Source of the DNA: a virus
DNA: 37,038 nucleotides
Direction: 5' to 3' (one strand)
IMG/VR virus record: IMGVR_UViG_3300017726_000022
Coordinates: 1 to 37,038 of that record
The position numbers and the translations under genes are program-made. Shown piece after piece: positions 3,367 through 36,584 of this stretch. The notes below the pieces were generated by a model that was given only the letters and a program-made list of their open reading frames with translations, ran no database searches and was not told the DNA's origin. Numbering within the stretch: position 1 is the first letter of the stretch; each line of letters starts with the position of its first letter.

Positions 3367-6145
3367 TTTCTTTAGCTTTTTCTACCAATTTAGACATATC
3401 AAAAAACTCAGGGTGAGACGCATCGAACATAGCGCACCGTTGAGCAGGTGACGATATAGCCATGCCTTTAGACATGCGCTTATTCACAGTATCCAAGTAC
3501 ATCCCACGCTTCTTAAGGTCTTCAATAAATGAGTTGTAGTCTGTGCTGTCCTTGTTCAATTCGTTGCGTATGTCTTTAACCGGGATAAAAAGCCGCTGGG
3601 TGTCACCCTCGTGCCGCATAACAAGCCTACCGTACTTAGGTTCTAGTCTAGGTGCTTTAGGTTTTGAAGTGCGCTGGTCTACGCCATCGTCAACGTCAAG
3701 CAGATTATTGAGGTTGTTGTTTATAAACGAACCAAGTATAGACACATAACTGTCCACCGGAGCTACAGTATCTTTCCTCAGTTGAATTATGGTCCGAGAT
3801 GCTTTCCTGTAGATGCGCCCCATGTCAAACTTTATTAACCCTAGTTTGCACGCAATTATTCCTGCGGCTATATTAGCAGCTATAAGGGCAGACCAATTTC
3901 TTTCACGTGAAGTAAGACGCATTTCTTTGTCTATCTTAGCCTGTATTTTAAGTACGTCTTTCTTTACACCTTCTGGATTAGCAAGCACGTGTTGCATGAA
4001 AGGTACAATGGCGTGACCAAAATTAGCGTTTAGCTGGTGGTCAAACATCTCTTTGCCGTACGTTGTAGAGATAGTCTCTTGGTCAACGTAGTCTACATAG
4101 AACTCCATGATTCGCATAAGCTCACCATCAGGTAGGCTTTTGTCTGCAAATAGCTTTTGGTAAAAAGAAGAGTTAGACGAGGAGAGCGTCATGTTACGCC
4201 ATGTAGTGTCGTTCTTACGGTTAGCGTTAGCTGTAGCGGTGCCTTTATCTTTACCTTTGCCTTGTGATACTTCGTAGGCAAAATCACTAAGGGAGCCAGA
4301 CTCCATATTACTAAGCTCATCCATAGTGTTTACTACGTTGTTTAGTATGCCCAGCTTGTTGACACGTGCTACGGCTGTGTCTTTAGGGTTACCCAAGAGC
4401 TGTTCAGGATCGCCACATATACTGTTTGCCATCCGCAGTATGGTTGTCTTACCCGTACCTGCGTTCTTATGTACTAAGTTTATGATTGCACCTTTCTGTC
4501 CGGTTAGTTGCAACAGAGGAGAACCAAAGCCAGAGAGTGCGGCAAACGCTTGTATCTCCATACCCTCCTTGTTATACAAGTTAAATACTTCTTGCCACTT
4601 TTCTAAGGTGCCTCTTGGTTCAAAGTAGGGTACATAAGCTTTAGTTACAGAAGACGCAGGGGAGTGATACACCCCATCCACAGTAATCTCTCGTTCTCCG
4701 ACAATAAACTTCGTATCGTTATCAGCCCATCCAAATTGTAATCTCATTATTTCTGCCTTTTCTTTTGTCTGTAGTATCTGAATAGTTCTAGTAACGTATT
4801 CAATCAAAGCCGCCGAGTTGCTGGCGCCTGCTACTACTCCATTATGTGCAAGAGTCTTAAGTAACAGTCTACGTTCTAAACATTCATTAGGTATCTTGAA
4901 CTCACGCACACCATCGTGCGGAGAATGAAAAACAAACACGGACACAAACCCTTCTTGGTCGTCCCACATTTGCTTCTTTAAATAGAAGTCGTGCTCGTAT
5001 ACAAGCACTGCGTCTTCTTCCTTCATTAAATACACGCCCCCATTTTTACCTCTAAAATAAGGTTCAAACTTATTTATAGGGCTGCTGGAGGCTTTCTTTA
5101 TAACTTTACCTAAGCTATACGGGCCTTTTACTTCTTTGCTTTTCTTGTGTGGGCAGTGCTTACAACCACCGGGGTTGTTCTTTTCAAACTCCTCACAAGA
5201 GTGTGGTCCCTTGATACCCGCGATCTTTCTTTCAACTGCGCCAAAATCGTAGTCAGGATGGCCGTGGGACACGGTGTGTATAGCTTTGCTACCGTCTACG
5301 CAAAACTTAGCGACAGACAGTGCGTTAAACCAACGAGGTTCCGACAGAGTTTTGCGGTTTAGCAGACTATCCTTGAGCTGTAGGCACGGGTCTTGCCGTC
5401 CTATTATTTTAGAAAACTTGTAGTCTTTGTTTTCATCAAGGAGCTTTTGCAGCGGGTCCAATATAGGTTGGCTGCTTTTCTTCTTAACCGTAACAACTTC
5501 ATCGGGGTCTACTCCAAGCAGCTCACGTATAGCGTTAGGTGCGTACCTTGCGGTTACAGGGTTTACTACCTTTACTAGCTTAGGAGTATCCTTCTTTTGG
5601 TTGTAGGTGCCCGGCACTCGCAGTATACGCGCAGCGTCGAACACGTTCGGATCAGCATAAAATTTCTGAGTAATACATACTTGCTCTAGTCTCTTGGCAA
5701 TAGGTAGCCATTTCTCGGTGGGTATTTCTTCTGTGAACCCCCAATACACATGCAAGCCATAACCTGAATTTACAATTACTGGTTCAGGCAGATCGACTGT
5801 ATTGCAAAACTCTTTAAGAGCTTCTAGTCCTTCTTTCTGGCTGGCGTAACCTTTCGGTAATCCTGTAGAGGGTTCTATCTCTTCTGCTTTGTCTCCACCG
5901 CAGTCTATATCAAGCCAAATAGCTCCAAGAGACTCTACATTTTCTACCTTCCGGCTACCTTTTTCTTTTAGCTTACCCAGAGCAAAGTAGACATCCATAG
6001 CTTGCTCGGAAAACCCGTCAGCTATTTCGTATGCTACTTCTAAACTATCGGTAAACTTTGGCATAAGCCTACCGTCTTTCATGCCGACCACATTGTATAT
6101 GCCGCCTTTAGGGACGACGTAATCTATGAGATCGAATGTTTGCAT
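3320..6145 (-). CDS. Bifunctional primase-helicase (AEP-type primase plus AAA/DUF927-like helicase)
   Basis: A 941-residue protein predicted to prime and unwind DNA at the phage fork. The N-terminal half resembles an archaeo-eukaryotic-type primase: WLDID at 77-81 gives the catalytic acidic pair (D79, D81), SGYGLHVYW at 127-135 gives the conserved His, and a FDAARILRVPGTYNQK segment follows at 169-184. A Cys/His cluster at 317-333 (C317, C328, C331, H333) could bind zinc. The C-terminal half has Walker A (GTGKT, 563-567) and a Walker B-like VVNTMDE (604-610), as in DUF927/SF3-like phage helicases. The gene starts at the TAATG overlap with the upstream HTH gene. The primase and ATPase assignments are strong; the exact helicase family is inferred. 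Confidence 0.88.
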   Translation of the reverse strand: MQTFDLIDYVVPKGGIYNVVGMKDGRLMPKFTDSLEVAYEIADGFSEQAMDVYFALGKLKEKGSRKVENVESLGAIWLDIDCGGDKAEEIEPSTGLPKGYASQKEGLEALKEFCNTVDLPEPVIVNSGYGLHVYWGFTEEIPTEKWLPIAKRLEQVCITQKFYADPNVFDAARILRVPGTYNQKKDTPKLVKVVNPVTARYAPNAIRELLGVDPDEVVTVKKKSSQPILDPLQKLLDENKDYKFSKIIGRQDPCLQLKDSLLNRKTLSEPRWFNALSVAKFCVDGSKAIHTVSHGHPDYDFGAVERKIAGIKGPHSCEEFEKNNPGGCKHCPHKKSKEVKGPYSLGKVIKKASSSPINKFEPYFRGKNGGVYLMKEEDAVLVYEHDFYLKKQMWDDQEGFVSVFVFHSPHDGVREFKIPNECLERRLLLKTLAHNGVVAGASNSAALIEYVTRTIQILQTKEKAEIMRLQFGWADNDTKFIVGEREITVDGVYHSPASSVTKAYVPYFEPRGTLEKWQEVFNLYNKEGMEIQAFAALSGFGSPLLQLTGQKGAIINLVHKNAGTGKTTILRMANSICGDPEQLLGNPKDTAVARVNKLGILNNVVNTMDELSNMESGSLSDFAYEVSQGKGKDKGTATANANRKNDTTWRNMTLSSSNSSFYQKLFADKSLPDGELMRIMEFYVDYVDQETISTTYGKEMFDHQLNANFGHAIVPFMQHVLANPEGVKKDVLKIQAKIDKEMRLTSRERNWSALIAANIAAGIIACKLGLIKFDMGRIYRKASRTIIQLRKDTVAPVDSYVSILGSFINNNLNNLLDVDDGVDQRTSKPKAPRLEPKYGRLVMRHEGDTQRLFIPVKDIRNELNKDSTDYNSFIEDLKKRGMYLDTVNKRMSKGMAISSPAQRCAMFDASHPEFFDMSKLVEKAKENADREGGLPDQLEEV

Positions 6146-18684: not shown

Positions 18685-18704
18685 AACATTGATTATTCAA
18701 TGTT
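18685..18704. repeat. 20-bp palindrome, variant copy 2 carrying a stop codon
   Basis: AACATTGATTATTCAATGTT on the plus strand; one base differs from the consensus. On the minus strand the change turns GAATAT into GAATAA and supplies the TAA stop of the VWA gene, whose last residues (NIE) are encoded by the palindrome itself. It is 15 nt upstream of the next start codon. Confidence 0.92.
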
Positions 18705-19865
18705 GATTGTTTTACCCACAGGGGCGGTTATGTTTCTGTTGTTTGCGATTGCCCAGAGCACCGGACTAGTCCAGTTACCCCACGAACCGATTTCACCATC
18801 AGTCAGTACCACCACACAGTCTGGCTTGATGCTGTTCTTACTCAAGTAGTCAGAGACGCACGTAGGGTCGGTACCTCCACCACCGTGTGCAGTGCGTAGC
18901 TCTGGTGCGTTCTTGAAAGAATCACTGGTATACGTCTCGTGGTTCTCAACCGCACCATCCCAGTCGATCATGTGTATCTTGTTAATGTTAAGGTTCTGCG
19001 CCAGCCCCACCATCTCACTGGTGACTTTGGTTAGTCGGTCACCGTACATCGAGCCGGACGTGTCCCGCGCAAACACCACCTCGTTGACGCTATTACCTTC
19101 TAGCGTAGGCATAACAATGTCTTGATGCAGATACCTGCGATTCGGTCTACGCCATGTCGAGCGTTCCTTCTTCCGGCACGTTGAATTCATAAACATTCGC
19201 AGTGCATCGCGCCAGTCCACCTTGGGCGTGATAAGTTCTTCAAGCCCCAGTGCATCACGTAGTCCACCTGCACCTGCTCGTTTACCTGCATGGATACCTT
19301 GACGGATAGCCTCGGTCACATCCTTCTTGAGTTCCTTGGCCTGTTCCTTGGTTAGTTCCTTGGCGCCATCCCAGTCGTGTTCATCGAACCCACCACCTCC
19401 ACCCCCTTCGTTATTCTCTAGCAGGTCGTTGAAGATGCGTTTGATGGTCCAGTCTCGGTACTTGATGTCATGTAAGCCAATGGGCTTCCCGTCCGCATCT
19501 TGGGGCATCTCGGTCAACAGATGATTAGGGTCGGCAAGTTCGATCTTGTCATTGTTCCAATAGTCTGCCGCCATGTTGGTTAGCATTGGGTTACGTTCCT
19601 TGAGATTTTGGTACGTCACCATGTGCATACCTGCCTTGTGCAACCACTCGTGCACCATGACATAGGCAATGCCCTTATCACCGTTGCTGATCTGATTGAA
19701 CAGGAAGTCTGGATTGAACCAACAGTCCCGGCCATCTGTAGCCGCTGTGGGTACGTCAGTAGTCAGAATAGTTTTACCGTGCATGGCAACACCACGCAGC
19801 AGCCCAAACTGCTCAGACCGCATAAGCCCGATCTTGATTGCTTTGAATTTACGTTCTACTTTCAT
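18693..19865 (-). CDS. VWA-domain protein with N-terminal metallopeptidase-like domain (DUF2201-type)
   Basis: A 390-residue protein. The N-terminal part carries HEWLHKAGMH (72-81), an HExxH zinc motif with a further His. A Gly-rich linker follows (GGGGGGF, about 160). The C-terminal VWA domain has a complete MIDAS: DTSGS (268-272), T332 in GGGTD, and TDGE (355-358). This is the domain pair of DUF2201-type proteins, which team with MoxR AAA+ ATPases to remodel or mature protein complexes. I chose ATG 19865, which has GGGAGAAAG upstream, over a TTG inside the palindrome. It follows the MoxR gene with 30 bp spacing. Confidence 0.85.
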   Translation of the reverse strand: MKVERKFKAIKIGLMRSEQFGLLRGVAMHGKTILTTDVPTAATDGRDCWFNPDFLFNQISNGDKGIAYVMVHEWLHKAGMHMVTYQNLKERNPMLTNMAADYWNNDKIELADPNHLLTEMPQDADGKPIGLHDIKYRDWTIKRIFNDLLENNEGGGGGGFDEHDWDGAKELTKEQAKELKKDVTEAIRQGIHAGKRAGAGGLRDALGLEELITPKVDWRDALRMFMNSTCRKKERSTWRRPNRRYLHQDIVMPTLEGNSVNEVVFARDTSGSMYGDRLTKVTSEMVGLAQNLNINKIHMIDWDGAVENHETYTSDSFKNAPELRTAHGGGGTDPTCVSDYLSKNSIKPDCVVVLTDGEIGSWGNWTSPVLWAIANNRNITAPVGKTINIE

Positions 19866-19876
19866 CTCTTTCTCCC

Positions 19877-19896
19877 AACATTGAATATTCAATGTT
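19877..19896. repeat. 20-bp perfect palindrome, copy 3
   Basis: AACATTGAATATTCAATGTT. Its edge shares one base with the TGA stop of the MoxR gene and it lies 11 nt upstream of the VWA ATG, with the Shine-Dalgarno in between. Confidence 0.95.
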
Positions 19897-20945
19897 CACA
19901 GTAAGTCCTCGTTATCGGCAGCCCACAGTGCAAACTCTCGGTTCGCGAAGGCGATTGCTTTCTTACGCTCGTGTCGGGCCAGTGCCACACAGAACACCAC
20001 CTGCCACTCTTCTTCCATGCGGCGCAGGTACTTGAGTATGTTGGTCAGGGTGTCCTTCTCTACATGCTCTAGTAGTCCGAACGTCATTACTGCGCGGGCA
20101 CCGGGGTCATGGGGCACAATAGCCACATCAGGTTGCTCGATCACAGCTTTGATTGGGGGTAATGATTCTTGGAACCGGATGAAAGATACAACGCTGGCCG
20201 CAAATGCCGCACCGCCTGCACCTGTTAGCGCAGCCATAAGCGCATCTTCATTGTAGTTTGCTCGGTTTTTGATGATCCCACTGGCAATTTCTAGTACACG
20301 TGGGGACACCACATTGTCCTGTGGGCTAGACGGGTGGAAGATAAACTCGTTCTTCACGCCATCGAGGTAGGATGCTAGGCAGTAGGGATACCGGTTTACC
20401 CATGCAATAAGTAGCGACTCGATGCCATTATTCACAGCCCAAGGTGTCCATACTTCATGGTCTGGTTTACGCACAATCAGCTCGATGATGCGCTGTCTGG
20501 TATGTTGGGCCAGCCCATCGCCCACGCCATCGGTGTCGAGGTTACCGGTCAGATAGATGATGCTGCCCTCGGGTATCGGTAGGTCACCAAGTCTAGGGTT
20601 AGATACTTCTAGCGCAGGGTGAAGCATGTTCTTCACTGGCTCCATGCCTTTAGTAAACTCGTCGAGACACCAGACAACGGGCTGTCCCCCGTGAATGCCG
20701 AATCGGGCATTGGGGTAATACCTCGTCACCTTGCTTTCGTGGTCGATCACAGGCATACACACATCACCTAGATCAAGGTTGGGCACGTCCACCATGCACA
20801 GTGGCAAGCCAGCGATACGTGCAATCTCTTGGGCGATGCTAGTCTTACCGACACCCGGCTCACCCCGCAGGATGAAACGCGTCTGGGGGTTGTTGACGAT
20901 AAGCTGTACAGCTTGCTGAAGTGTTACTGTTTGAATCTCATTCAT
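19896..20945 (-). CDS. MoxR-family AAA+ ATPase
   Basis: A 349-residue AAA+ protein. Walker A GEPGVGKTS (28-36), Walker B VVWCLDEF (90-97), sensor-1 LTGN (132-135) and arginines in HTRQR (148-152) are all present. MoxR ATPases act as chaperones for metal-cofactor insertion or complex assembly, typically with a VWA partner, which is the next gene. ATG 20945 is chosen; an in-frame TTG inside the palindrome would add 12 residues but lacks a ribosome site. It lies downstream of a strong promoter candidate (21022-21051), so it probably leads the cassette. Confidence 0.88.
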   Translation of the reverse strand: MNEIQTVTLQQAVQLIVNNPQTRFILRGEPGVGKTSIAQEIARIAGLPLCMVDVPNLDLGDVCMPVIDHESKVTRYYPNARFGIHGGQPVVWCLDEFTKGMEPVKNMLHPALEVSNPRLGDLPIPEGSIIYLTGNLDTDGVGDGLAQHTRQRIIELIVRKPDHEVWTPWAVNNGIESLLIAWVNRYPYCLASYLDGVKNEFIFHPSSPQDNVVSPRVLEIASGIIKNRANYNEDALMAALTGAGGAAFAASVVSFIRFQESLPPIKAVIEQPDVAIVPHDPGARAVMTFGLLEHVEKDTLTNILKYLRRMEEEWQVVFCVALARHERKKAIAFANREFALWAADNEDLL

Positions 20946-20965
20946 TGTTACGTTCTCTTTAGTTG

Positions 20966-20985
20966 AACATTGAATATTCAATGTT
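20966..20985. repeat. 20-bp perfect palindrome, copy 4
   Basis: AACATTGAATATTCAATGTT, 20 nt upstream of the MoxR start and about 37 bp downstream of the promoter -10 candidate, so it would lie in the 5' leader of the transcript. Confidence 0.95.
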
Positions 20986-24467: not shown

Positions 24468-25094
24468 ATGGCTGTTGTACAAGTGGAACCTACCAAGGAC
24501 CACCCGATCCCCTATGACTTGTCAGAGGAGAAACCCGCGACCCTAATCGATGAGATAGCAGTGGCGGGCAATACAGCAGAATTGCAGGTAGAAATGGGCG
24601 CACCTTTGGAAGTTTCCGAGGGAGATGCTGCCCGAGAAAAAGAATTGTTAGAGGCAGTTGCCACAGCGCAAAAGCCCGCCAACCTTACAAATCAGACCAC
24701 GGCGTTTGCTGCGGCTGCATTTCTACGTACATATGGTGCCCAGCTTGCTATGGATGCAGCACAGGCTCGGTCTGCCATTACGCACAAGCTTATGGAGATT
24801 GCCGACTGCGGCGACCCAAGGTACGAGCTGAAAGCACTTGAACTGCTCGGGAAGCACAGCGACATAGGTATATTCACCGAACGCAGTGAGATAACTATAA
24901 ACTACAAGAGTCCAGAAGAACTGGAGAAGGCGATCAAGGATAGGGTGAAGAACCTACTTAACGCTACTGTAGTAGACATAACGCCAGCAGGGGGAGCCTC
25001 CGAAGAAGAACTGGACGATATGTTAGGTGTAGTCGATCTGGATGCTGAAGATGATGACGAAGAATTAGATGACGAACGTGACATCTCCATTTGA
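24468..25094 (+). CDS. Terminase small subunit
   Basis: A 208-residue protein with a central helical DNA-binding region (AQARSAITHKLMEIADCGDPRYELKALELLGKHSDIGIFTERSEI, about 100-144), a layout typical of small terminases that recognise phage DNA for packaging. Both ends are acidic, the C-terminus ending in a run of Asp/Glu. The large subunit starts 26 bp before its end. No clear Shine-Dalgarno precedes ATG 24468; a short hairpin (24448-24462) sits there instead. The assignment rests on context and pattern. Confidence 0.75.
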   Translation: MAVVQVEPTKDHPIPYDLSEEKPATLIDEIAVAGNTAELQVEMGAPLEVSEGDAAREKELLEAVATAQKPANLTNQTTAFAAAAFLRTYGAQLAMDAAQARSAITHKLMEIADCGDPRYELKALELLGKHSDIGIFTERSEITINYKSPEELEKAIKDRVKNLLNATVVDITPAGGASEEELDDMLGVVDLDAEDDDEELDDERDISI

Positions 25095-26604
25095 CGACAT
25101 ATCTCTTCAGGATATACCGAAGGTACTGCCCTTGTTGTCGCAACCGGAGCAGGAAAGGGTACTGGCAGAACTTGAGCAGTTAGCGAAGCTCAAAAAGCAG
25201 AAGAAGGCGCAGACTAGGTTTTTAGATTTTACTAGGCAGATGTGGCCTACGTTTATTAGCGGGAAGCACCATGCGAGGATGGCTGAAGCATTTGAACGAG
25301 TGGCTCGGGGCGAGTGTAAGCGTCTTATTGTCAATATGCCTCCTCGTCACACTAAGTCTGAGTTTGCTAGTTATCTTCTGCCTGCTTGGTTTTTGGGTCA
25401 ATTTCCCCACAAGAAGGTCATTCAAACGTCGCACACCGCAGAACTTGCGGTTGGCTTCGGTAGAAAGGTAAGAAACTTAGTCGATCAGGATGCGTATCAC
25501 GAGATATTCCCTGATTTACACCTGTCCTCGGACAGTAAAGCGGCAGGTAGATGGAACACAAGCAAGGGTGGAGACTACTTTGCGATAGGTGTCGGCGGTG
25601 CGGTTACTGGTAAAGGTGCGGATTTGCTCATTATTGACGACCCGCACTCGGAACAAGAGGCAGCATTAGCCGAAACTAACCCGGATATATACGACAAGAC
25701 CTACGAGTGGTACACATCCGGGCCAAGGCAGCATCTCCAACCGGGCGGAGCCATCGTTGTGGTGATGACACGGTGGTCATTGCGTGATTTGACGGCCCGT
25801 GTACTCAAAGCCAGTGCCCAAAGGGGTGGTGATGAGTGGGAAGTGATTGAATTTCCGGCATTAATGCCGAGCGGGAACCCTCTGTGGCCTGAGTTTTGGT
25901 CAAAAAAGGAGCTTGCGGCCCTAAAAGAGGAACTTCCTAACGCAAAATGGATGGCTCAGTACCAACAAGAGCCAACATCCGAGACATCTGCCATCGTGAA
26001 GCGCGAATGGTGGAGAACTTGGGAAGAAGAACAGCCGCCACCGTGTGATTTCTTACTAATGGCGTGGGATACGGCGTTTGAGAAGACAAATCGGGCTGAC
26101 TATTCGGCCTGTACGACGTGGGGTGTGTTCTACGCGCCCGATGAGAACGGAGTTGAGCAAGCAAATATTATTCTGCTCAATGCGTTCAGGGACAGGATGG
26201 AGTTTCCTACGCTGAAACGCGTAGCAGTAGAGCAATACGAGGAATGGGAGCCGGACTCGCTCATTGTAGAGAAGAAAGCTTCCGGGGCACCGCTGATATA
26301 CGAGATGCGGGCGATGGGTATACCAGTGCAGGAGTTCACTCCTACCAAGGGTAACGACAAGATTACGAGACTGAACGCAGTTTCTGATTTGTTTGCCTCG
26401 GGTATGGTGTGGGCACCGGATAAGAGCTGGGCGGAAGAGGTTATTGATGAGGTCGCAGCATTCCCGGCAGGGGAGCATGACGACTACGTGGACTCCGTGT
26501 CATTGGCGTTGATGCGGTATAGAAAAGGCGGATTCGTAAGGTTGCCCTCAGATGAAGAAGACGAGGTGCAATACTTCAAGCAACGTAGAGGCGGGTACTA
26601 CTAA
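25069..26604 (+). CDS. Terminase large subunit
   Basis: A 511-residue DNA-packaging motor. The ATPase has a Walker A-like PPRHTKSE (91-98) and Walker B LLIIDDPH (186-193). The nuclease domain has AWDTAFEKTNRADYS (about 332-346), an EKKASG segment and GEHDDYVDS (about 469-477), supplying the RNase H-like acidic residues. Such proteins cut concatemers and drive DNA into the procapsid through the portal, encoded next. ATG 25069 is used; a GTG three codons on is an alternative. Confidence 0.95.
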   Translation: MTNVTSPFDDISLQDIPKVLPLLSQPEQERVLAELEQLAKLKKQKKAQTRFLDFTRQMWPTFISGKHHARMAEAFERVARGECKRLIVNMPPRHTKSEFASYLLPAWFLGQFPHKKVIQTSHTAELAVGFGRKVRNLVDQDAYHEIFPDLHLSSDSKAAGRWNTSKGGDYFAIGVGGAVTGKGADLLIIDDPHSEQEAALAETNPDIYDKTYEWYTSGPRQHLQPGGAIVVVMTRWSLRDLTARVLKASAQRGGDEWEVIEFPALMPSGNPLWPEFWSKKELAALKEELPNAKWMAQYQQEPTSETSAIVKREWWRTWEEEQPPPCDFLLMAWDTAFEKTNRADYSACTTWGVFYAPDENGVEQANIILLNAFRDRMEFPTLKRVAVEQYEEWEPDSLIVEKKASGAPLIYEMRAMGIPVQEFTPTKGNDKITRLNAVSDLFASGMVWAPDKSWAEEVIDEVAAFPAGEHDDYVDSVSLALMRYRKGGFVRLPSDEEDEVQYFKQRRGGYY

Positions 26605-29027
26605 TGGCTATTGAGAAAGGTTTATATCAAACCCCAGAAGGTCTGGCGGTTGAAGAAGAAGCACAAATGGAAATCGAGATTGTTAACCCTGACATGGTGA
26701 CAATGGACGATGGTAGCGTTGAGATTACTCTAGTACCTGAAACAGGTATGGAAGAAACGGCTGGTGCGCCGTTTGACGCTAACCTTGCAGAGTATTTAGA
26801 AGACGGACAGTTGACAGAGATCGCCTCAGAGCTTATAGATTATGTCGAGACCGACACATCTAGCCGTAAAGAGTGGGCAGATACCTTTGTTAAAGGGCTA
26901 GATGTGCTCGGTTTCAAATATGAAGAGCGTGTCGAGCCTTGGGAAGATGCTTGTGGTGTCTATTCCAATGTCCTAGCCGAAGCCGCTATCCGCTTCCAAG
27001 CTGAAGCGATGAGCGAAACTTTCCCCGCCGCTGGCCCTGTCAAGACCAAGGTACTTGGAGAAATAACCGAGGAGAAGGAAGACGCCGCCCTCCGAGTCAA
27101 GACGGACATGAACTACGAACTTACCGATGTCATGGTCGAATACCGTCCTGAACACGAAAGGTTACTCTACTCCCTTGGTCTTGCAGGGTCTGCGTTTAAG
27201 AAAGTCTACTTTGATCCCAACCTTGGCAGACAGGTTGCTATGTATATCCCTGCCGAGGACATGATTGTCCCTTACGGCGCGTCAAACATAGAGACAGCAG
27301 AGCGTGTTACTCACGTAATGCGTAAAACCAAGAACGATCTCGTTAAATTGCAGGTTGCTGGCTTCTATAGAGAAGTTGAACTAGGCGATCCTACCTCCTA
27401 TCACACCGATATAGAGGAGAAAAAAGCACAGGAAGGGGGGTACACCCTCAACGACGATGACCGTTACACGCTCTTAGAAGTCCATGCAGACCTCATATTA
27501 GACGATGTTGACCAAGAAGAAGGCCCGCTTCAGGTAGCAAAACCCTACATTGTTACGATAGAGCAGGGCACCAGCACTGTTTTAGCTATCCGCCGTAACT
27601 GGAACCCTGATGATCCGTTGATGCTCAAGCGTCAACATTTTGTCCACTACTCTTATGTACCGGGTTTTGGCTTCTACGGGCTTGGTTTAATTCACATTAT
27701 TGGTGGTTATGCTAGGGCTGGCACTTCTCTTATACGTCAACTAGTTGACGCAGGTACTTTGTCGAACCTACCCGGTGGCTTGAAGTCCCGTGGGCTGCGG
27801 GTTAAGGGCGATGACACACCCATTGGTCCCGGCGAGTTCCGCGATGTAGACGTGCCTTCTGGCAGTATAAAAGACAATTTAATGACGCTCCCTTACAAGG
27901 AGCCTAGTCAGACACTTCTTGCATTATTGAAGCAGATCACTGAAGAAGGCCGACGTTTAGGGGCGATCAGTGATATGAACATTTCTGACATGAGCGCCAA
28001 CGCGCCTGTCGGAACAACCCTTGCTCTGTTGGAGCGCACTCTCAAGCCGATGGCTGCGGTCCAAGCCCGTGTCCACTACTCGATGAAACAGGAGTTCAAA
28101 CTTCTGCGAGGCATCATCGCTGAGTATGCGCCTGACGAATACATGTACATGCCTGACCGTGGAGAACCCCGTGCCCGCCGCATGGACTACGACATGGTGG
28201 AAGTAATTCCTGTCAGTGATCCCAACAACAGTACGATGGCACAACGGGTTGTGCAGTATCAGACTGTGTTGCAGATGGCACAGGCTACCCCACAGATATA
28301 CGACCTGCCCCAGCTACACCGGCAAATGATCGAAGTTCTGGGTATTAAGAACGCAGATAAGCTTGTACCTACTAAAGATGATATTAAACCGTCTGACCCA
28401 GTTAGTGAAAACATGGCTGTGTTGGTAGGAAAGCCTGTCAAAGCGTTCATTTACCAAGACCACGACGCGCACATTGCTACACACCAAGCGTTCTTACAAG
28501 ACCCGCAGATTGCGGCGTTTATCGGGCAGAACCCAGCAGCGCAACAGCAGGTAGCAGCACTGCAAGCGCACATTGCCGAACACGTAGCATTTAGTTATAG
28601 ACAGCAGATGGAAGCAAAAGTTGGAGTCCCATTACCTGCACCAGATGCAGAACTTCCAGAAGAGACTGAGGTGGAGTTGGCAAGCTTACTAGCGCAGGCC
28701 GGGCAACAGCTTACACAACAGAAGCAACAAGCTGCCGCACAACAAGCTGCACAGCAGAAGGCTCAAGACCCGATTATCCAGATGCAACAGCAAGAATTGC
28801 AGCTTAAAGCTGCTGAACAACAGCGCAAAGCACAGAAAGATCAGGCAGATGCAGCACTTGACGCTGCAAAACTCCAGCTTGATAAGCAGAAAGCAGACAA
28901 CACCGCCACTATTGAGGCTGCACGTGTTGCTTCTCAGACAGATCAAGCTAATGCAAGACAAGACTTGGACGAGGCCAAAGCCATACTAGACCTCGCCAAA
29001 GCACGACAAACGCCTCCTAGGAGGTAA
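26604..29027 (+). CDS. Portal protein (P22-like/podovirus type)
   Basis: An 807-residue portal. Its region from about residue 60 to 560 follows the large podovirus portal layout (e.g. a SSRKEWADTFVKGLDVLGFKYE segment near 80-105). Residues after about 690 are Gln/Ala-rich coiled coil (QQAAAQQAAQQKAQ), resembling a portal barrel. It forms the dodecameric channel for packaging and the tail attachment site. It starts at a TAATG overlap with the terminase stop. Length is within the range of P22-type portals (about 700-800). Confidence 0.9.
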   Translation: MAIEKGLYQTPEGLAVEEEAQMEIEIVNPDMVTMDDGSVEITLVPETGMEETAGAPFDANLAEYLEDGQLTEIASELIDYVETDTSSRKEWADTFVKGLDVLGFKYEERVEPWEDACGVYSNVLAEAAIRFQAEAMSETFPAAGPVKTKVLGEITEEKEDAALRVKTDMNYELTDVMVEYRPEHERLLYSLGLAGSAFKKVYFDPNLGRQVAMYIPAEDMIVPYGASNIETAERVTHVMRKTKNDLVKLQVAGFYREVELGDPTSYHTDIEEKKAQEGGYTLNDDDRYTLLEVHADLILDDVDQEEGPLQVAKPYIVTIEQGTSTVLAIRRNWNPDDPLMLKRQHFVHYSYVPGFGFYGLGLIHIIGGYARAGTSLIRQLVDAGTLSNLPGGLKSRGLRVKGDDTPIGPGEFRDVDVPSGSIKDNLMTLPYKEPSQTLLALLKQITEEGRRLGAISDMNISDMSANAPVGTTLALLERTLKPMAAVQARVHYSMKQEFKLLRGIIAEYAPDEYMYMPDRGEPRARRMDYDMVEVIPVSDPNNSTMAQRVVQYQTVLQMAQATPQIYDLPQLHRQMIEVLGIKNADKLVPTKDDIKPSDPVSENMAVLVGKPVKAFIYQDHDAHIATHQAFLQDPQIAAFIGQNPAAQQQVAALQAHIAEHVAFSYRQQMEAKVGVPLPAPDAELPEETEVELASLLAQAGQQLTQQKQQAAAQQAAQQKAQDPIIQMQQQELQLKAAEQQRKAQKDQADAALDAAKLQLDKQKADNTATIEAARVASQTDQANARQDLDEAKAILDLAKARQTPPRR

Positions 29028-32038: not shown

Positions 32039-32947
32039 ATGGCTATTTCAAGAGCGCAACTCCTTAAGGAGCTACTACCGGGTCTAAACGCCCTATTTGG
32101 CCTCGAATACGCTAAGTATGGCGATGAGGCTGCTGAAATCTTCGAGACTGAATCTTCGGAACGGTCTTTCGAGGAAGAAACTAAGTTGTCTGGTTTCAGT
32201 GCTGCACCTGTTAAAGGTGAGGGTTCTGCAATCTCTTATGACAACGCGCAAGAAGCTTGGACTGCTCGTTACACACACGAGACAGTCGCTATGGGCTTTT
32301 CGCTGACTGAGGAAGCAATCGAAGATAATCTCTACGATTCTCTCTCTTCTCGCTATACAAAGGCACTTGCCCGCGCTATGGCGTACACCAAGCAAACCAA
32401 AGGCGCTGCTATTCTTAACAACGCTTTTGCTGCCGGTACTACATATGGTGATGGACAGACTCTCTGTTCTACTGCTCACCCTCTAGTATCTGGTGGTACT
32501 AACTCAAACCGTCCTGCTGTTGCGGCTGACCTTAACGAAGCTTCTCTTGAAGCGGCTGTTATCCAGATCGCTGGTTGGACTGATGAGCGTGGTCTGCTTA
32601 TCGCAGCTAAGCCTTCTAAGCTGGTTATCCCACCTGCGTTGCAATTCGTTGCTACTCGCCTGTTGGATTCCGAGCTTCGTCCGGGTACAGCGGATAACGA
32701 CATCAATGCCATGAACAACAACGGTACAGTTCCGGGTGGTTATACAGTTAACAACTACCTTACTGATACCAATGCTTGGTTCTTGATGACTGACATCCCG
32801 AATGGCCTGAAGCACTTTGTCCGCTCACCCATGGCAACTAGCATGGATGCAGACTTTGACACAGGTAACAGCCGATATAAGGCTCGTGAGCGATATAGCT
32901 TCGGCGTATCTGACCCACTGGGCGTTTTCGGTTCACCCGGCGCTTAA
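32039..32947 (+). CDS. Major capsid protein (Mu gpT-like, HK97 fold)
   Basis: A 302-residue shell protein. The beginning (AQLLKELLPGLNALFGLEY) and the ETVAMGFSLTEEAIEDNLYDSL, LLIAAKPSKLVIPPALQ and KARERYSFGVSDPLGVFGSPG segments are typical of the gpT-like major head subunit family. No protease or cleavage site is obvious. It has a strong AAGGAGG site and is followed by an intrinsic terminator, which would raise the level of capsid mRNA ahead of minor genes. Confidence 0.88.
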   Translation: MAISRAQLLKELLPGLNALFGLEYAKYGDEAAEIFETESSERSFEEETKLSGFSAAPVKGEGSAISYDNAQEAWTARYTHETVAMGFSLTEEAIEDNLYDSLSSRYTKALARAMAYTKQTKGAAILNNAFAAGTTYGDGQTLCSTAHPLVSGGTNSNRPAVAADLNEASLEAAVIQIAGWTDERGLLIAAKPSKLVIPPALQFVATRLLDSELRPGTADNDINAMNNNGTVPGGYTVNNYLTDTNAWFLMTDIPNGLKHFVRSPMATSMDADFDTGNSRYKARERYSFGVSDPLGVFGSPGA

Positions 32948-33635: not shown

Positions 33636-34040
33636 ATGGCTGATACAGTAACGACTCAAATAATCCAAGACGGGGCACGTCAAGCGATCATTAAAGTCAA
33701 CACTGCTGTGGGTAACACAGATGTAGTTACGTCTACGATGGTGGATGTATCTGCGTTGAGTGCAGACCCCATTAGCAGGAGAGCCTGTACTGGCGTGACT
33801 TTGCTGGGACTTACTTACCTTGGTGTGGGTGTTGGGGTCAAATTAGAATGGGATGCCTCGACTAACGTCCTTCTATTTGACTTCCCGGTTAATTGGACAG
33901 AGCAGTATGACTTCTCTGACTACGGGATACCCAACAATTCTGGTTCTGGCAAAACGGGAGACATAGTAGCGACTACTGTATCTCCCAGTGCTGGTGATAC
34001 TTACTCTTTCATATTTACTGTGCAAAAGCTCTATGGCTAA
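33636..34040 (+). CDS. Virion structural protein
   Basis: A 134-residue protein with strong beta-strand character (GVTLLGLTYLGVGVGVKLEWDAS; NVLLFDFPVNWTEQYDFSDYG). No specific family, but such proteins accompany capsid genes in marine phages. TAGGAG lies upstream. The next gene starts 8 bp before its end. Confidence 0.62.
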   Translation: MADTVTTQIIQDGARQAIIKVNTAVGNTDVVTSTMVDVSALSADPISRRACTGVTLLGLTYLGVGVGVKLEWDASTNVLLFDFPVNWTEQYDFSDYGIPNNSGSGKTGDIVATTVSPSAGDTYSFIFTVQKLYG

Positions 34041-34323
34041 GAAAAAGGGAACTATGAAAGGCCACACCATTAAAGGTGGTCATAAGCGTCCAACTAAGTC
34101 TGGCGCAGGTATGACCAAGAAGGGTGTGGCTAAATATCGTAGAGACAACCCCGGCTCTAAGCTAAAGACAGCCGTTACTGGTAAAGTAAAGAAGGGCAGT
34201 AAAGCAGCAAAGCGTCGTAAGTCTTTTTGTGCGCGTTCTGCTGGGCAGATGAAACAGTTTCCAAAAGCAGCTAAAGACCCTAATTCTAGGCTGCGGCAAG
34301 CCAGAAAACGGTGGAAATGTTAA
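34033..34323 (+). CDS. Basic phage protein (possibly DUF6321-like)
   Basis: A 96-residue Lys/Arg/Gly-rich protein; ATG 34033 is chosen because it opens the conserved MAKKKGTMKGHTIKGGHKRP start. KPTKSGAGMTKKG-type, NPGSKLKTAVTG and KAAKRRKSFCARSAGQM motifs are shared with a phage family I remember as DUF6321; the name is tentative. Probably a minor virion or DNA-binding protein. PqqA-like gene follows after 18 bp. Confidence 0.62.
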   Translation: MAKKKGTMKGHTIKGGHKRPTKSGAGMTKKGVAKYRRDNPGSKLKTAVTGKVKKGSKAAKRRKSFCARSAGQMKQFPKAAKDPNSRLRQARKRWKC

Positions 34324-34341
34324 ACACGGTAGGAGGTTATT

Positions 34342-34413
34342 ATGTGGACTAAACCAACATACGAAAAGATTCGCTTAGGTTTTGAAGTCACTATGTACTT
34401 CAAGAATCGTTAA
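34342..34413 (+). CDS. pqqA: PQQ precursor peptide PqqA-like protein
   Basis: A 23-residue gene read directly. It starts MWTKP and contains GFEVTMYF, so the Glu (E15) and Tyr (Y19) that PqqE joins and later enzymes convert to the cofactor pyrroloquinoline quinone are both present in the family's E-x3-Y spacing. Length (22-24 residues) and the N-terminal MW-K-P also match gammaproteobacterial PqqA. A perfect AGGAGG lies 5 nt before ATG 34342 and the TAA overlaps the next ATG (TAATG), so it is part of the late operon. No pqqB, C, D or E gene is in the window, so it would need the host's enzymes. Chance match is very unlikely; function in the phage is inferred. Confidence 0.85.
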   Translation: MWTKPTYEKIRLGFEVTMYFKNR

Positions 34414-34712
34414 TGCCTAGCAAGTCCAAGAAGCAGCACAAGTTTATGGCAGCGGTGGCTAATAACCCAGAGTTTGCCAGCGAAGCAGGCGTCCCCCAGA
34501 GCGTAGGGCGCGAGTACATGAAGGCCGATGAAGGCCGTTTTGCAGGAGGTGGTCTGATGAAAGAAGTACCTGAAGATAAGAAAAGTTCCTTGGGCAAACT
34601 GCCTGAACCTGTACGCAACAAAATGGGGTACATGGCCGAAGGCGGTAACGTCAAAGGTATGAAGAAGTGCCCCCGTGATGGCATAGCACAACGTGGAAGA
34701 ACACGAGCATGA
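34413..34712 (+). CDS. Small phage protein (DUF3008-like start)
   Basis: A 99-residue protein. The beginning SKSKKQHKFMAAVANNPEFA resembles the DUF3008 family of small phage proteins (tentative); after it come Gly-Met-Lys stretches (FAGGGLMKEV; MAEGGNVKGMKKC). It starts at TAATG after pqqA and overlaps the next gene by ATGA. Probably packaged in or attached to the virion. Confidence 0.58.
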   Translation: MPSKSKKQHKFMAAVANNPEFASEAGVPQSVGREYMKADEGRFAGGGLMKEVPEDKKSSLGKLPEPVRNKMGYMAEGGNVKGMKKCPRDGIAQRGRTRA

Positions 34713-35879: not shown

Positions 35880-36584
35880 ATGACTACCTCGGGAACTGCC
35901 ACATTCAATATGGACTTCACGGAGATCGCTGAAGAAGCGTGGGAACGTGCTGGCCGTGAGATGCGTTCGGGATATGACCTGCGTACTGCACGTAGGTCTA
36001 TGAACCTGCTTACTATTGAGTGGCAGAACCGTGGCATTAACATGTGGACTATAGATGAAGGCACTGTCAACCTTGTGGAAGGAACGGCGACGTACGCTCT
36101 ACCGGCAGACACCATTGATTTGCTTGAGCACGTTGTACGTACTGGTAGCGGTAATGTTACTACTCAGTCTGATCTCAACATTACGCGCATAAGTGTATCT
36201 ACTTACTCTAGTATCCCTAACAAACTTTCTCAGGGACGCCCTATACAACTGTATATAGACAGAGGCCAAGCAAACCCCTCCGTCACTGTATGGCCCGTCC
36301 CAGATCAGGGCACTGCGCTTGCCCCGTACTATATTTTAAAGTATTACCGTATGCGCCGTATTGAGGATTCGGGAACGGGTGTGAACACCGCCGATGTCAA
36401 CTTTAGATTCCTACCCTGCCTAGTTGCAGGGCTTGCGTATTATATAGCGCAAAAAGACCCAGAACTGATGCCTAGAATACCTATGATACAAGCAGAGTAT
36501 GAAAGGCAGTTTGAACTAGCGGCAGGAGAAGACAGAGAAAAAGCTTCTATTAGTTTAGTACCTCGTAGCTATGGCGTGAGGTAG
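35880..36584 (+). CDS. Head-tail adaptor/tail tubular protein A-like
   Basis: A 234-residue protein with the pattern of T7 gp11/P22 gp4-like adaptor proteins: EIAEEAWERAGREMRSGYDLRTARRSMNLLTIEWQNRG (about 16-53), a TYALPADTIDLLEHVV strand (about 70-85), and a C-terminal helix FLPCLVAGLAYYIAQKDPE with a Y-E-R-Q-F-E-L ending. It joins portal and tail. It starts 3 bp after the 45-residue gene. Confidence 0.82.
   Translation: MTTSGTATFNMDFTEIAEEAWERAGREMRSGYDLRTARRSMNLLTIEWQNRGINMWTIDEGTVNLVEGTATYALPADTIDLLEHVVRTGSGNVTTQSDLNITRISVSTYSSIPNKLSQGRPIQLYIDRGQANPSVTVWPVPDQGTALAPYYILKYYRMRRIEDSGTGVNTADVNFRFLPCLVAGLAYYIAQKDPELMPRIPMIQAEYERQFELAAGEDREKASISLVPRSYGVR

Follow-up and report, generated by a model that had tools for sequence, protein, structure and literature searches.

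The occurrence of the gene for PqqA, the precursor peptide of pyrroloquinoline quinone (PQQ), among the structural genes of a marine phage raises the question why a virus would carry this peptide alone and what it could gain from it during infection. The gene in question, pqqA, is a 23-codon frame in IMG/VR virus record IMGVR_UViG_3300017726_000022, which comprises 37,038 bases and was analyzed over its full length (hereafter, the window). The initial annotation of this DNA knew of no described role for PqqA in a phage, which proved incorrect: in 2020 PqqA was described in a Lake Baikal methylotroph phage, for which a role in PQQ supply and methanol dehydrogenase function was proposed (PMC7678222), and a sediment study of 2026 lists viral pqqA, pqqE, and pqqD (PMC13188868). 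The idea of a phage PqqA is not new; the present analysis contributes another phage lineage, a different apparent host group, and a view of how widely the gene occurs across viruses. Judged by sequence comparison, phage PqqA is probably an auxiliary metabolic peptide, through which the phage provides the host with the substrate that is consumed in PQQ synthesis.

The frame, its ribosome site AGGAGG at a distance of 5 nt, and the TAATG by which its stop codon (34411-34413) overlaps the ATG of the downstream gene were read exactly where the initial annotation had placed them (Table 1). The PqqA identity claimed there, including the E-x3-Y pair, was confirmed by profile search: Pfam PF08042 matched the peptide with an E-value of 9.8e-10 and 38.6 bits (cut-off 21.1) over all 19 model positions, and the NCBIfam equivalog TIGR02107 with an E-value of 3.7e-11 and 42.6 bits (cut-off 20). 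The pair consists of Glu15 and Tyr19, which are the positions of the residues cross-linked by PqqE/PqqD in known PqqA. The window peptide is similar to cellular PqqA (PF08042, TIGR02107; e.g., that of Acinetobacter pqqABCDE) in length and in Glu/Tyr spacing, and the core R-[LIF]-G-F-E-[VI]-T-M-Y is common to both, as are scores above the curated cut-offs. On the basis of these matches, the frame is a genuine pqqA and not a chance frame. None of the PHROG profiles covers pqqA in the window, no solved structure matched the peptide, and a promoter scan yielded one weak site, which is below the number obtained in shuffled sequences. Unlike its cellular counterparts, the window pqqA has no pqqB-E beside it and is embedded in a block of phage structural genes; the initial annotation had already noted the lack of other pqq genes, and queries with PqqB, PqqC, PqqD, and PqqE indeed gave only chance matches in the window. 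The presence of these partner genes near pqqA is typical but not obligatory, as illustrated by a methylotroph with separate pqqA copies (PMC9851590).

Conservation among relatives, which the initial annotation had named as a check, was observed in that 13 related contigs carry pqqA at this very junction; frameshifted copies were found in none of the relatives and the absences are clean. For 19 distinct sequences of the window clade, the ratio of nonsynonymous to synonymous variation (pN/pS) amounted to 0.136 (0.066 nonsynonymous versus 0.483 synonymous per site), and W2, P5, Y7, E8, R11-E15, and T17-K21 are invariant in these sequences; the pattern indicates that pqqA in this clade is under strong purifying selection. 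In the relatives L087, L089, L091, and L106, the DUF6321 gene that precedes pqqA in the window directly abuts the 99-aa gene that follows it, with pqqA cleanly absent. In L084, whose sequence upstream agrees with the window at 99.3% of 1,195 bases, the peptide is gone, with a ribosome site retained at positions 4177-4192 that now precedes the downstream gene, representing the scar of a precise pqqA deletion. This scar reads as a recent precise loss of pqqA. Among the 47 broader capsid relatives whose sequence continues downstream for 3 kb or more, pqqA was found at this place in one. Such patchy presence among close relatives, seen here in the clean absences and the L084 scar, is in combination with selection the pattern expected of an auxiliary gene.

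The gene is by no means confined to the window clade. Viral loci were found with degenerate DNA patterns, and a scan pooled with other loci gave at least 137 viral matches to the PqqA core, with a Trp-x2-Pro start in 136 of the 137 listed; pooled scans gave at least 212 distinct viral pqqA loci encoding at least 108 different peptides. Clustering of these loci by their flanking 600 bases (a 1.5-kb version over-merged through shared flanking genes) resolved about 43 flanking-gene contexts, which do not equal independent acquisitions, as non-overlapping fragments can inflate their number. The subtype of the window, ending in MYF, is represented by at least 77 of these loci in 13 contexts. A Shine-Dalgarno (SD)-like motif precedes 202 of 210 viral pqqA starts, compared with 10% of random ATGs. 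Moreover, a pattern that left the Glu and Tyr codons unspecified recovered both residues in 76 of 76 distinct neighbourhoods with 22 distinct cores, a constraint that argues for maturation of the peptide. PqqB, PqqC, PqqD, and PqqE were not found at any viral pqqA locus examined. One phage group (L338, L353, L378, and L380) has a PqqA with an altered and longer N-terminus (MKNQAKHWTKP...) and an unchanged core.

Methylophilales methylotrophs depend on PQQ methanol dehydrogenase, and tblastn detected pqqA in nine records of Methylophilales/Methylophilaceae phages, i.e., Venkman, P19250A, MEP301, MEP401, MEP402, and four Melnitz records, as well as in one uncultured Manatee Spring phage. The nine records are not to be read as a proportion of the Methylophilales phages, since the taxonomy names others (MEP431-434 etc.). 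As in the window, these methylophages carry the precursor gene alone; they differ from it in peptide subtype (such as MWTTPAATEMRFGFEVTMYVMNK) and in phage family. In none of the nine records, all from cultured methylophages, is the gene annotated as pqqA: five have no feature at its position and the four Melnitz records have a hypothetical gene, as read from the annotations of Venkman, MEP402, P19250A, MEP301, and one Melnitz record and from match tables for the remainder. Probably the gene was missed because gene callers skip genes of 23 codons. In one Melnitz phage (MZ577097.1, approximately 76140-76205) the hypothetical gene lies across pqqA on the opposite strand, and pqqA is closely followed by a tRNA-Leu gene. 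The paper on MEP401/402 lists auxiliary genes and leaves pqq unmentioned (PMC10580990).

Searches for PQQ dehydrogenases and PqqE covered 50 viral records, several of which are fragments. PqqE exceeded the cut-off in none of the 50, and one, the 72-kb contig G064 on which pqqA locus L185 resides, combines pqqA with a full PQQ methanol/ethanol dehydrogenase (608 bits). The dehydrogenase is followed by a formate-dehydrogenase-like gene (alpha subunit), and genes for ribonucleotide reductase and a phage exonuclease are encoded on the same contig. The contig is similar to the methylotroph phages from Lake Baikal described in PMC7678222. The joint presence of the dehydrogenase and the precursor of its cofactor in a single phage argues for supply rather than sabotage. 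DnaK- and GroEL-like frames were also observed on this methylophage-like contig (loci L421 and L424-L427).

The bacteria that share the peptide type of the window were addressed in one genome scan, in which the window-type core matched 20 species. One of these, labelled Verrucomicrobiales (L299), has a phage-type pqqA; it is taken as a probable mis-binned phage contig, because its upstream peptide context is that of viral locus L379 and its genome has no PQQ-alcohol dehydrogenase over the cut-off. The labels of the other 19 species fall within Proteobacteria and are gammaproteobacterial in nearly every case (Pseudohongiella, Halieaceae, and others); most of these species are represented by metagenome assemblies. 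At least pqqB and pqqD are found near pqqA in 18 of the 20 bacterial loci, most of which also have pqqE and pqqC. PQQ-alcohol dehydrogenases exceeded the family cut-off in 19 of the 20 genomes (L292-L311), many of them having 20-58 matches, a count in which those below the cut-off can include other beta-propeller proteins. A single pqqA is present in 19 of the 20 genomes, with three copies in G019. The window gene shares no more than 20 of 23 residues and 80% of bases with those of these bacteria, which does not indicate recent transfer from any of them. The host of the window phage is likely to be found in or near these gammaproteobacterial groups, as suggested by the shared peptide type. The record named 'Acinetobacter phage MD-2021a' (L145, CAKLQF020000010.1) was rejected as a phage, as its fur and ppk genes and a pqqB-E operon preceded by pqqA point to a bacterial chromosome contig; it was used only as the source of PqqB-E sequences. 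A second record with this name (CAKLQH020000055.1) also contains a pqqA match.

The proposed supply of a consumable substrate draws on the findings that the frame encodes PqqA and is constrained, that it occurs alone and in many phage contexts, and that bacteria with this type of peptide possess the PQQ machinery; the host, the expression and processing of the peptide, and its benefit to the phage are inferred. As part of the structural-gene block and with a strong ribosome site, pqqA would be translated into a peptide that PqqD/PqqE of the host take up and cross-link from Glu to Tyr, after which it would be trimmed and oxidized to PQQ by a host protease, PqqB, and PqqC. The PQQ formed would load the periplasmic PQQ-dependent alcohol dehydrogenases of the host, by which carbon oxidation and electron supply could be sustained during infection. 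One PqqA peptide is consumed per PQQ, while PqqB-E act repeatedly, and a phage with pqqA only can thus keep PQQ flowing for as long as the host enzymes last. Assuming that the supply of host pqqA is lost during infection, the phage would carry only the component that is consumed stoichiometrically and must be remade, and the catalytic PqqB-E could persist from before infection. Cyanophage psbA is a comparable case in that the phage brings only the fastest-used component of a host system, with the difference that psbA encodes a protein subunit, whereas pqqA encodes a consumed peptide substrate. Formation of PQQ from added PqqA by a cell-free extract is cited in PMC9851590, and raised pqqAB levels increased PQQ by 29%, compared with an eightfold increase for the whole pqqABCDE cluster (PMC7936290).

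Several points weigh against this proposal. The far stronger effect of the full cluster than of pqqAB implies that PqqA may not always be limiting. In addition, pqqA is dispensable: 46 of the 47 broader capsid relatives lack it, and L084 has cleanly lost it despite a flank that is 99.3% identical. The host group of the window phage is predicted from a 23-aa peptide, and the phages in culture that are closest to it in capsid and terminase have SAR11, cyanobacteria, or unnamed bacteria as hosts.

The initial annotation had also offered a decoy, in which the phage peptide would occupy PqqD/PqqE without being matured and would lower PQQ synthesis of the host. A decoy would agree with phages encoding the substrate and never the enzymes, and excess substrate could titrate the chaperone PqqD; however, in a decoy the cross-linked residues should have been lost or altered, yet they never vary among the neighbourhoods, and the 72-kb contig pairs pqqA with a PQQ-requiring methanol dehydrogenase, which leaves the decoy as an unlikely explanation. 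Marginally less likely still is another function of the peptide, e.g., as a small regulator or as the precursor for a different radical S-adenosylmethionine modification. The altered N-termini of some viral copies would be in line with such a function, whereas the conserved core and the position of the window peptide within the PqqA profile disagree with it, as does the absence of PqqE from the viral records searched, a search that was not directed at other modifying enzymes.

Superinfection exclusion, by which extra PQQ that is exported or released would close the outer-membrane receptor PqqU to phages using it, has a precedent in the blocking of a PqqU-targeting phage by PQQ (PMC12124388). 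Very different methylophage types share pqqA, however, for which shared host metabolism is a better explanation than a shared receptor, and use of PqqU by the window phage or its competitors is unsupported here, making exclusion a very unlikely purpose of the gene. A passenger or spurious frame without function might be suspected from the absence of pqqA in many relatives and from the loss scar, but this suspicion is already contradicted by the pN/pS and SD results, and the about 43 contexts and the exact profile matches also stand against it; it has hardly any probability. The auxiliary metabolic peptide, which the initial annotation had put forward alongside the decoy, appears to be best supported, by the many contexts, the methylotroph phages, the contig with methanol dehydrogenase, and the invariant Glu and Tyr.

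The gene resides on a bona fide viral genome, as the hallmark genes for major capsid, portal, terminase, and adaptor are encoded in the same window (Table 1). The 'late structural operon' of the initial annotation holds with respect to its structural nature, with the major capsid upstream of pqqA and the SU10-type adaptor downstream, while late expression is an expectation taken from this neighbourhood. The major capsid protein shares 62-70% identity with those of HTVC023P, HTVC027P, DSL-LC04, and Pag-Yong1, and on the basis of capsid and terminase the window phage groups with HTVC023P, HTVC027P, DSL-LC04, and 65-kb Planktothrix phages. The DUF6321 protein encoded upstream of pqqA has relatives in pelagiphages and other marine phages, and the N-terminus of the 99-aa product encoded downstream resembles phage virion structural families. 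Elsewhere in the window (18693-20981, minus strand), an AAA ATPase gene lies beside a DUF2201 metallopeptidase/VWA-like gene, constituting a MoxR-VWA-like pair in a phage.

Table 1. Location of pqqA and of the genes of the structural block in the window (feature, position, strand, description).
Terminase	25069-26604		structural block of the window
Portal	26604-29027		structural block of the window
Major capsid	32039..32947	+	PHROG 371, E=1.9e-21; marks structural operon and phage lineage (HTVC023P/HTVC027P-like)
DUF6321, small basic protein	34036..34323	+	Pfam PF19846, E=2.6e-12; left side of pqqA insertion point
Shine-Dalgarno AGGAGG	34331..34336	+	5-nt spacer to pqqA ATG; direct reading
pqqA	34342..34413	+	23-aa PQQ precursor MWTKPTYEKIRLGFEVTMYFKNR plus stop; Pfam PF08042 and TIGR02107 above curated cut-offs
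99-aa gene	34413..34712	+	PHROG 16759, E=6.6e-18, also 22033 and 25121; right side of pqqA insertion point
SU10-type head-tail adaptor	35880..36584	+	Pfam PF24175, E=5.9e-13; downstream end of block around pqqA

The phage-borne pqqA of Lake Baikal phage VP_266 was likewise proposed to supply PQQ during infection (PMC7678222). VP_266 is a T4-like phage with a methanol dehydrogenase gene of its own and has been assigned to Methylophilaceae, whereas the window phage is HTVC023P-like and no PQQ biosynthesis enzyme was found in it; moreover, its peptide type is that of Gammaproteobacteria rich in PQQ-alcohol dehydrogenases, unlike the Methylophilaceae assignment of VP_266. The breadth across viruses is a more surprising result than the new member in the window. 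The same lone gene in hundreds of phage sequences suggests that phages commonly top up the raw material of PQQ during infection. With less confidence than for the supply role itself, the balance tips towards a precursor-only PqqA that is a common and overlooked phage gene, gained by many lineages on PQQ-dependent hosts (methylotrophs and alcohol-oxidizing marine Gammaproteobacteria) and controlling the PQQ economy of the host through a consumed peptide. As several carriers of pqqA are cultured with their hosts, the role of a phage-supplied PQQ precursor is directly testable. If true, a gene of 70 bases would tune a whole periplasmic oxidation system, and a very short auxiliary gene would let phages influence the oxidation of methanol and alcohols, by which carbon is turned over in surface waters.
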